A stretch of DNA of 44,449 nt from Curvibacter sp. (GTDB lineage Bacteria > Pseudomonadota > Gammaproteobacteria > Burkholderiales > Burkholderiaceae_C). The first letter of the stretch is position 1; each line of letters begins with the position of its first letter. The stretch spans positions 26,071 to 70,519 of the forward strand of contig JAHRYV010000010.1 in the NCBI GenBank assembly GCA_020621965.1. The letters run 5' to 3'. The position numbers and the translations under genes were made by a program. This document shows positions 33,511-34,857 of this stretch, in pieces. Below the pieces are notes generated by a model. That model was not told the DNA's origin. It was given only the letters and a program-made list of their open reading frames with translations, and did not search any database.

Positions 33511-33544
33511 CGGCCGGGCGACACGGCCTGTAATTCAACTGTGC

Positions 33545-33550
33545 TATATT
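33545..33550 (+). promoter_or_regulatory. -10-like box of the aroG leader transcript
   Basis: TATATT is followed by seven bases and then the ATG of the leader peptide at 33558. The leader message would thus begin at or next to its own start codon. I see no strong -35 box in the expected place. Confidence 0.5.
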
Positions 33551-33557
33551 GAGAACC

Positions 33558-33629
33558 ATGGTTTCGACCCGTTCCTACTTTTTTGGCTACTTTTGGTTCT
33601 CAAGCGCCGTCGGCGGAAGAGAGTTCTGA
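33558..33629 (+). CDS. aroG leader peptide, aromatic-rich
   Basis: A 23-codon frame that ends in TGA at 33627-33629. Residues 7-14 read YFFGYFWF, so seven of eight are aromatic, and an eighth aromatic (Phe) is the last residue. All three aromatic amino acids are present. Chance is an unlikely explanation for such clustering just upstream of DAHP synthase and an intrinsic terminator. By analogy with the phe, trp and his leaders, ribosome stalling on these codons would report shortage of charged tRNA-Phe, -Tyr or -Trp. Translation itself is inferred. Confidence 0.82.
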   Translation: MVSTRSYFFGYFWFSSAVGGREF

Positions 33630-33691
33630 ACGTACCCAGCAGAAACGTACCGAATTCCAAAAACCGCCGGCCCCGCCGGCGGTTTTTTTTT
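33605..33691 (+). promoter_or_regulatory. Transcription attenuator of aroG (antiterminator and terminator)
   Basis: The terminator is a perfect 11-bp stem, 33661-33671 with 33675-33685, with a three-base loop. A run of nine T (33683-33691) makes up the end of the 3' arm and the U-tract. An alternative pairing joins 33609-33616 with 33664-33671 (8 bp, one G-T wobble), which would use up the left arm of the terminator. A short hairpin 33605-33608/33612-33615 could act as the first structure. A ribosome at the leader stop (33627) would cover the antiterminator strand and allow termination; a ribosome stalled on the aromatic codons would leave it free. The pairing is seen by eye; energies were not calculated. 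Confidence 0.78.
33661..33691 (+). terminator. Intrinsic terminator in the aroG leader
   Basis: AAACCGCCGGC pairs with GCCGGCGGTTT around a CCC loop, with nine consecutive T at 33683-33691 (the first three also belong to the stem). It lies 32 bases after the leader-peptide stop and 42 bases before aroG, the position expected for attenuation and not for the end of tldD. Confidence 0.93.
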
Positions 33692-33732
33692 GACCAGCTC
33701 ACACATCCAAACCGAACTCAAGGAGCGACACG

Positions 33733-34857
33733 ATGACTGCCAAAGCCCAAGCGACCAGCACCGACGCCTGGTATGCGCATCCCGGTGACAAGACCAGCCG
33801 CACCGACGACCAACGCATCAAGGACATCACCGTGTTGCCCCCGCCCGAACATCTCATCCGCTTCTTCCCCATCAGTGGCACGCCCGTGGAGAGCCTGATC
33901 TCCCACACCCGCCACAGCATCCACAACATCATGCACGGCAAGGACGACCGCCTGCTGGTCATCATCGGTCCCTGCTCGATCCATGACCCGGCGGCCGCGC
34001 TGGAGTACGCCCGCCGCCTGAAGGTACAGCGCGAGAAATACCAGGACACGCTGGAGATCGTGATGCGCGTGTACTTCGAGAAGCCGCGCACCACGGTGGG
34101 CTGGAAGGGCCTGATCAACGACCCCTACCTGGACGAGAGCTTCCGCATCGACGAGGGCCTGCGCATCGCGCGCCAGCTGCTGATCGAGATCAACCGTCTG
34201 GGTCTGCCGGCCGGCAGCGAGTTCCTGGACGTGATCTCGCCGCAGTACATCGGCGACCTGATTTCCTGGGGTGCCATCGGCGCGCGCACCACGGAGAGCC
34301 AGGTGCACCGCGAACTGGCCTCGGGCCTGTCGGCCCCGATCGGCTTCAAGAACGGCACCGACGGCAACATTCGCATCGCCACCGACGCCATCCAGGCCGC
34401 CGCACGCGGCCACCACTTCCTGTCGGTGCACAAGAACGGCAAGGTCGCCATCGTGCAGACCAACGGCAACAAGGACTGCCACGTGATCCTGCGCGGCGGC
34501 AAGGCGCCCAATTACGACGCCGCCAGCGTGGCTGCCGCCTGCAAGGAGCTGGAGGCTTCCAAGCTGCCGACCACGCTGATGGTGGACTTCAGCCACGCCA
34601 ACAGCAGCAAACAGCACGAGAAACAGCTCGACGTGGCGCGCGACATCGCGGGCCAGATCGCCAGCGGTTCGCGCAGCGTTTTCGGCGTGATGATCGAGAG
34701 CCACCTGAACCCCGGCGCACAGAAGTTCACCCCGGGCAAGGATGAGGTCGCCAAGCTGGAATACGGCAAGAGCATCACCGACGCCTGCCTGGGCTGGGAC
34801 GACTCCGTTCAGGCCCTGCAGGTGTTGTCCGACGCGGTCAAGGCCCGGCGAGGATAA
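33733..34857 (+). CDS. aroG: DAHP synthase, type I (AroG/AroF/AroH family)
   Basis: 3-Deoxy-D-arabino-heptulosonate-7-phosphate synthase, first step of the shikimate pathway, joining phosphoenolpyruvate and erythrose 4-phosphate. It has 374 residues, slightly longer than the E. coli enzymes. Landmarks are the N-terminal regulatory region with PPPEHLIRFFP, LLVIIGPCSIHDP, MRVYFEKPRTTVGWKG, GARTTESQVHRELASGLSAPIGFKNGTDG and VDFSHANSSKQ. It has an AAGGAG site eight bases before the ATG. Expression is probably set by the leader attenuator. Which aromatic amino acid inhibits the enzyme cannot be read from the sequence. Confidence 0.95.
   Translation: MTAKAQATSTDAWYAHPGDKTSRTDDQRIKDITVLPPPEHLIRFFPISGTPVESLISHTRHSIHNIMHGKDDRLLVIIGPCSIHDPAAALEYARRLKVQREKYQDTLEIVMRVYFEKPRTTVGWKGLINDPYLDESFRIDEGLRIARQLLIEINRLGLPAGSEFLDVISPQYIGDLISWGAIGARTTESQVHRELASGLSAPIGFKNGTDGNIRIATDAIQAAARGHHFLSVHKNGKVAIVQTNGNKDCHVILRGGKAPNYDAASVAAACKELEASKLPTTLMVDFSHANSSKQHEKQLDVARDIAGQIASGSRSVFGVMIESHLNPGAQKFTPGKDEVAKLEYGKSITDACLGWDDSVQALQVLSDAVKARRG

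Follow-up and report, generated by a model that had tools for sequence, protein, structure and literature searches.

In the classical transcription attenuators of the trp and pheA type, a short leader peptide carries the regulatory codons, and the leader RNA can form three hairpins, 1:2, 2:3 and 3:4, with strand 1 lying over the regulatory codons and an intrinsic terminator at the end. In E. coli trpL, strand 2 comes after the leader stop codon. In the multivalent ilv attenuators, one leader contains codons for Ile, Val and Leu, whose synthesis shares a pathway. The sections of one survey that deal with aromatic regulation describe trp and pheA as being under attenuation in enterobacteria (PMC5343134). 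According to the same sections, TyrR and TrpR jointly control the aromatic genes of E. coli, DAHP synthases included, and both are absent from other proteobacterial classes in the surveyed genomes (PMC5343134). For Sinorhizobium meliloti trpL, the relevant part of another report describes a leaderless leader RNA, with the ATG of the leader frame as its 5' end (PMC7298713), and leaderless transcripts have been mapped in Burkholderia cenocepacia (PMC4603805).

Here, we describe an element upstream of aroG in a 44,449-nt stretch of Curvibacter sp. DNA, hereafter the window. We read it, with a probability of about 93%, as a ribosome-mediated transcription attenuator of aroG that would sense Phe and Tyr and, in this group, Trp. 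The reading is built on what the sequence itself shows, namely the leader frame and its position before aroG, the promoter motif, and competing pairings of which 2:3 and 3:4 are conserved and co-vary. In those features that a sequence can settle, the element is of the trp/phe type and would work like those attenuators. As in enterobacterial trp and pheA, there are regulatory codons in a short leader, hairpins 2:3 and 3:4, a putative hairpin 1:2 with strand 1 over the regulatory codons, and an intrinsic terminator. Unlike in those systems, control would act on aroG, the first common enzyme, the leader combines Phe, Tyr and Trp codons, the start is predicted to be leaderless and a match to Rfam is absent. 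Strand 2 lies inside the leader frame, unlike that of E. coli trpL. The element resembles the ilv attenuators in placing several amino acids of one pathway in a single leader but reads the aromatic amino acids at the shikimate entry. The probable leaderless leader RNA is a likeness to S. meliloti trpL, with the difference that the start is predicted here, whereas trpL starts at its ATG and controls trpE(G) through Trp codons (PMC7298713, in the part noted above). The E. coli TyrR and TrpR perform the same task of matching DAHP synthase to the aromatic end products, but as DNA-binding regulators (PMC5343134, same sections). The features in the window are as follows.

33540-33550, + strand: extended -10 promoter TGTGC-TATATT (TGTGCTATATT); a -35 box is not recognisable
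33558-33629, + strand: leader peptide frame, with ATG at 33558, 23 codons (MVSTRSYFFGYFWFSSAVGGREF) and TGA at 33627-33629
33576-33599, + strand: sensor codons 7-14, Tyr Phe Phe Gly Tyr Phe Trp Phe (YFFGYFWF)
33597-33608, + strand: strand 1 of the 1:2 hairpin, TTCTC at 33597-33601 and CGCC at 33605-33608, from the minimum free energy (MFE) fold of the RNA from the ATG
33609-33616, + strand: strand 2, the antiterminator half, GTCGGCGG, within the leader frame and co-varying with strand 3
33612-33623, + strand: 3' side of the 1:2 hairpin, GGCG at 33612-33615 and GAGAG at 33619-33623
33659-33671, + strand: strand 3, the 5' arm of the terminator, of which 33664-33671 pairs with strand 2 too
33675-33691, + strand: strand 4 (33675-33687) and T run (33683-33691)
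33720-33725, + strand: SD-like AAGGAG of aroG
33733-34857, + strand: aroG, DAHP synthase, 374 aa (TIGR00034 aroFGH, 539.6 bits against a cut-off of 173.2)

The initial annotation had proposed a 23-codon frame with YFFGYFWF at codons 7-14, a terminator stem with a nine-T run before aroG and an 8-bp antiterminator pairing, and all of these are present in the window. The intrinsic terminator at 33659-33691 reads AAAAACCGCCGGC-CCC-GCCGGCGGTTTTT plus the nine-T run. Its stem is 13 bp long counting A-U pairs (33659-33671 with 33675-33687), and the T run ends 41 nt from the aroG ATG at 33733. The alternative pairing of 33609-33616 with 33664-33671 includes one G-U. Two parts go beyond that earlier account: the 1:2 hairpin and the extended -10 box before the leader ATG. 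The window has 182 short ATG frames over its two strands. This leader frame alone has at least six aromatic codons in eight, and a terminator follows it; none of 20,000 base shuffles of 33511-33732 gave such a combination. The aromatic leader with its terminator is therefore a real observation, far beyond chance. The gene behind it, identified by TIGR00034, belongs to the pathway of the leader's amino acids; with the AroG-only model NF006723 it scores 554.3, just below the cut-off of 568. An Rfam scan of the whole window at the gathering threshold found no family match, including the leader families for Phe and Trp. A stock promoter and terminator scan found nothing. To call a promoter, it requires a -35 box, and stems that extend into the T run probably escape its rule for tails.

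Conservation was assessed with an AroG protein scan, from which the best 80 of more than 590 loci were taken with up to 2 kb upstream of each. Most of these loci belong to Comamonadaceae and related groups, among them Acidovorax, Variovorax, Polaromonas, Hydrogenophaga, Ramlibacter, Comamonas, Rhodoferax, Limnohabitans, Rhizobacter, Aquabacterium and Ideonella. A script found leader and terminator in 72/80 of them. L034, whose contig stops at aroG, was left out, and the script gave no hairpin for L016, L027, L070, L073, L075, L076 and L080. L016 has both leader and hairpin, the latter missed by the script, and L027 has the leader in an assembly that is without most of the terminator and the aroG start. 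This brings the aromatic leader to 74 of these best 80 loci, whereas absence of the short frame in relatives is what the initial annotation had named as counting against its reading. In L027, a metagenome-assembled genome, the left arm of the terminator runs straight into about codon 14 of aroG (L027:1994-2003), a junction that would reflect an assembly collapse or a deletion at the hairpin. Five of the 80 loci have aroG without the attenuator: four from Polynucleobacter and one chromosome-2 copy from Cupriavidus. No leader was found in Polynucleobacter L070, L073, L075 and L076, of which L070 alone was read by eye; in L070 (1960-1994), aroG begins 30 nt after tldD and a -10-like TAAAAT lies near aroG's own ATG. 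Polynucleobacter L067 and L069 retain the leader.

Of 2,802 short ATG frames on both strands of the 80 loci, 62 were aromatic-rich (at least six in eight), and 60 of these have a terminator, one per locus in 60 loci, all on the aroG strand and with the stop 78-166 nt upstream of the aroG match. The two without a terminator are the leader of L027 and an unrelated frame in L048. In 69/73 loci, the stretch that best complements the terminator arm is the GGCG/CCGGC strand; in L046, L056, L071 and L078, it is another one.

Both competing pairings are kept in relatives with compensatory change, which the initial annotation had named as a check. We used two alignments, A1 with 62 of 71 references and A2 with 67 of 73 other-family sequences, 24 close ones and the window, along with pooled statistics on codons, energies, footprints and ribosome blocks from 140 of 162 leaders. 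The other 22 leaders were dropped for lack of an exact GGCGG, an unmatched terminator pattern or a wrongly picked frame. In the 140 leaders, the base beside the near-invariant core is C, G, C on strands 2, 3 and 4 in 61 and T, A, T in 27. Its 2:3 pair is kept in 99/140, whereas 2,000 shuffles, which ignore common descent, averaged 82.4 and never exceeded 92. The second base out gave no signal (97 paired versus 93.5 in shuffles, p 0.11, 140 leaders); one base pair carries most of the 2:3 co-variation, and the core is nearly invariant. In A2, the terminator pair is A-U in 43 sequences and G-C in 41, and the matching 2:3 pair is C-G in 33, U-A in 27 and unpaired in 28. No double change was seen in the 2:3 helix on the close set A1, where RNAalifold returned the terminator only, with no covariation term. 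At the divergent locus L068, the entire strand set is replaced (GGGGCGGCT, AGCCGCCCC and GGGCGGTT). The native 2:3 and 3:4 energies were reached by 0/200 permutations over all leaders and over the other families; within the close group, the 2:3 energy was reached by 0/200 and the 3:4 energy by 1/200 permutations, which ignore common descent. These data argue for an antiterminator that excludes the terminator and has been kept by selection.

A third hairpin would complete the layout. The RNA from the leader ATG folds as 1:2 plus 3:4 (z -3.0, 0/200 shuffles), and the RNA cut before strand 4 has 2:3 as its MFE structure, though it is no stabler than shuffles (z +0.48). In 1:2, TTCTC (33597-33601) pairs with GAGAG (33619-33623) and CGCC (33605-33608) with GGCG (33612-33615), and strand 1 overlaps the last aromatic codon, as in the classical layout. 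The outer five pairs of 1:2 are paired in 92.9% of alignment cells, and three of the five have changes on both sides; slid versions of the 1:2 plus 3:4 structure had equally many double-change cells. The native 1:2 energies were reached by 0/200 permutations over the 140 leaders, but by 39 and 141 of 200 within groups. A control with synonymous codons gave a modest effect (mean z -0.78, 54/73 negative, 16/73 at p ≤0.05), with the window itself at z +0.18. That 1:2 completes a classical three-hairpin attenuator is thus fairly supported by these folds and alignments. A fold of 33520-33740, a stretch that extends beyond the likely start on the 5' side, gave a weak z of -0.90. It contained the pairing GAGAACC/GGTTCTC, which was rejected because it uses bases before the leader ATG.

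The promoter suggests where the leader RNA begins. The extended -10 box sits 7 nt upstream of the leader ATG in the window, and the consensus TGTGCTACATT, with up to three mismatches, precedes the leader ATG in 71/73 loci. The spacing from box to ATG is 6-8 nt in 71/73, in four of them after the start was moved to an upstream in-frame ATG, and the -35 region shows little conservation across the 73 loci. With a stricter rule, the box was found before 75/76 close leaders and 31/64 other leaders, compared to shuffle means of 4.4 and 4.3. An SD-like word stands before the leader ATG in 3/140 leaders. Since the box is only 7 nt before the ATG and SD-like words are rare, the leader mRNA of the window's group is probably leaderless, and transcription is predicted to begin on the ATG or no more than about 2 nt from it. 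About half of the other-family leaders carry the box, and the leaderless prediction should be taken to cover the window's group.

In the mechanism that we infer, which takes in the start site, the stalling, the role of 1:2, the termination efficiency and the response to each amino acid, transcription would start at or beside the leader ATG, and a ribosome would load on the 5' end of the RNA and translate the leader behind RNA polymerase. When charged Phe, Tyr or Trp tRNA is short, the ribosome would stall on the aromatic codons and occupy strand 1. Strand 2 would then be free to pair with strand 3 as the antiterminator, and RNA polymerase would read into aroG. When all the charged tRNAs are plentiful, the ribosome would reach the stop codon, and strand 2 would be covered or would refold on strand 1 after release. 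Strands 3 and 4 would then pair as the terminator, and transcription would end with the release of an RNA of about 134 nt. The comparative data support the earlier proposal of ribosome-stalling control of aroG.

The effect of ribosome position was modelled in the 140 leaders with the ribosome as a 30-nt block, and an antiterminator was counted when P(2:3) exceeded 0.5. A block at the aromatic codons near strand 1 gave the antiterminator in 137/140 leaders, and a block about nine codons before GGCGG did so in 124/140; P was 1.00 for the window in both cases. With the ribosome at the stop, the antiterminator formed in 47/140 and P for the window was 0.00. Without a ribosome, it formed in 54/140, and the window had a P of 0.82 before strand 4 is made. 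In the model, this value would mean partial antitermination without translation in the window, if the RNA equilibrates before strand 4; the E. coli trp attenuator is not known to show such antitermination. The initial annotation also held that a ribosome at the leader stop would cover the antiterminator strand. With an assumed 30-nt footprint, this holds in the window, where the footprint starts 3 nt upstream of GGCGG, and fails in some relatives: of 140 leaders, 62 have GGCGG fully masked, 46 have it masked in part and 32 leave it uncovered. Masking at the stop codon alone was dropped as the general terminating step, with GGCGG outside the footprint in those 32. Since the masking is incomplete, termination in many species probably also involves the refolding of 1:2 once the ribosome has left.

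The amino acids that would be sensed were judged from the leader codons. Phe occurs in all 140 leaders, Tyr in 130 and Trp in 101. All three kinds of aromatic codon occur in 67/73 leaders of the close set. In the 64 leaders of other families, Phe is always present, Tyr is found in 55 and Trp in 30. The claim that all three end products are sensed at once therefore stands for the window's own group and does not hold in general. From these counts, Phe sensing would be general and Tyr sensing nearly so, and Trp sensing would belong to the window's group and part of the rest. Phe codons are TTT in 391/619 cases in the leaders compared to 156/647 in sampled aroG genes; the aroG genes of the same group favour TTC, and the leaders use mostly TTT.

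Other explanations for a short frame before a terminator were weighed against this reading. The hairpin could be the terminator of the upstream gene tldD, next to an accidental short frame, and tldD does lie directly upstream of aroG in the window and is in the fetched stretch of 65/80 loci. However, twelve leader-bearing loci with at least 1 kb of upstream sequence have no tldD, it is present in only 7/17 loci of other families, and neither the retained aromatic codons nor the co-varying antiterminator strand would be expected of it, so we give it almost no credence. A short conserved peptide before a switchable terminator would also fit a nascent-chain arrest peptide of the TnaC/SecM type, which would detect a free amino acid while inside the exit tunnel. 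The codons speak against it. In 76 close leaders, codons 4, 5 and 6 back from GGCGG are aromatic in 95, 96 and 93%, but the residue at these positions varies among F, Y and W, and none of the sensor part is fixed. Such swapping with aromaticity kept is predicted by sensing of tRNA supply and not by an arrest peptide. The C-terminal conservation follows the RNA strands and shifts frame: among 73 leaders, GGCGG is in frame 0 in 56 and frame 2 in 10, and the exact GGCGG is absent in 7. Because GGCGG is retained in two reading frames, the C-terminal Gly-Gly codons serve the RNA. An arrest peptide is thus very improbable.

A somewhat less remote option, which we still consider improbable, is that the leader RNA or peptide acts mainly in trans, like rnTrpL/peTrpL of S. 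meliloti, with cis attenuation secondary. After termination, the released RNA would itself be a small mRNA of the leaderless kind, like the one described for S. meliloti (PMC7298713), but the constant place before aroG (89/89 examined) and the co-varying terminator and antiterminator point to action in cis. A riboswitch that binds a metabolite or protein and controls the terminator, with the frame incidental, would account for the switchable terminator and nothing further. The window has no Rfam match at the gathering threshold, and conservation is in the codons and the competing strands, with no other conserved fold in the alignments. This explanation deserves as little weight as the tldD terminator, and ribosome-mediated attenuation remains the preferred reading.

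The spread of the element was then estimated with covariance models. Model R1, built from 62 close sequences, matched 95/399 genomes of the order Burkholderiales at E ≤0.001. Of the 95 matches other than the window, 89 were opened, 29 as loci from the search output and 60 as fetched stretches, and six were left unopened; all 89 sit upstream of an aroG homologue with 58-86% identity. The script picked a wrong frame at L110, L130 and L156. At L164 (201-342) and L165 (201-346), the GGCGG strand and terminator are kept with a single aromatic codon in the frame found; possibly, the sensor codons were lost from the leader or the wrong frame was picked. Model R2, built from 92 sequences, gave strong full-length matches (E ≤1e-6) in 104/399 genomes of the order, in 14 families, including all 12 listed genomes of the window's own family. 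The remaining 295/399 genomes gave no such match, so that most of the order would be without the element. For a negative control, we scanned 32 stretches upstream of aroG that R2 does not match strongly, taken from other families or from second aroG copies. They contained no frame with at least six aromatic codons in nine followed by a terminator; the nearest was L215, with five aromatic codons in a GTG frame. The second aroG copies of four genomes (L215, L216, L219 and L220) had no such leader that we could find, and in 3/4 of these genomes the other aroG copy has the leader. The aroG paralogues seem to be under different control.

Outside the order, a search of 274 genomes of the class gave just two strong R2 matches. 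Both genomes belong to one family, and in each the match precedes a homologue of aroG (59 and 62% identity). These are L182 and L183, from another order, with a similar leader and terminator before aroG at about 1500-1640 on the - strand; the leader is FYFWYYFPKPLAEEG in L182 and a GTG-start variant in L183. The gamma-proteobacterium Solimonas sp. SE-A11 (L057:1773-1953) has a beta-type aroG that is 83% identical to the window's, with a leader; tldD is absent from the fetched stretch. Because the leader accompanies so similar a gene, this suggests that aroG and the attenuator were transferred together.

E. coli has three DAHP synthase isoenzymes. In the window's genome, whose assembly is 86% complete, we found one AroG-type DAHP synthase and no class II DAHP synthase, with class I-beta outside the search. 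With a single AroG-type enzyme, a pooled aromatic sensor would therefore make sense. No aromatic leader was seen before pheA in this genome, where pheA lies in a run of coding sequences. Upstream of trpE in the same genome, a 31-codon ATG frame with WPW (L221:1201-1296) is preceded, at a distance of a few bases, by a -10-like TAAACT; from its sequence, this is a possible Trp leader, leaderless too. In 60 genomes of the order searched at curated cut-offs, TrpR was found in 1 and the TyrR helix-turn-helix in 0, and the E. coli control was positive for both. The attenuator may do the job of TyrR/TrpR at aroG.

In the open papers searched, we found no report of a leader-peptide attenuator at aroG or a DAHP synthase in beta-proteobacteria, although a prior listing in subscription papers or supplementary tables is possible. 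One such table gives 82 short 5' UTRs for B. cenocepacia (PMC5688073). Neither aroG nor DAHP comes up in the accessible main text of a survey on premature terminators (PMC2965389). The pertinent section of a TyrA survey describes predicted attenuators before tyrA operons in other bacteria, such as Vibrio, and some of those operons are led by a DAHP synthase gene (PMC1173090). The mechanism is of a known kind, and what is unusual is the target, the codon mix, the probable leaderless start and the position of strand 2 within the coding frame. A broader scenario would be that, in beta-proteobacteria devoid of TyrR and TrpR, a leaderless three-amino-acid attenuator came to govern the shikimate entry, that some gamma-proteobacteria acquired it along with aroG, and that the released 134-nt RNA, a tiny leaderless mRNA in its own right, acts in trans on the terminal branches as well; we regard this as speculative and rather unlikely.

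The wide conservation indicates that many beta-proteobacteria would set the entry to the pathway by the availability of Phe, Tyr and often Trp to ribosomes. This would answer how bacteria without TyrR and TrpR tune aromatic entry, namely by the supply of Phe, Tyr and often Trp tRNA. DAHP synthase is also a usual target in strains built for aromatic compounds. The element, present in 14 families and without an Rfam match, would add a family of leader RNAs with small peptides to genome annotation.
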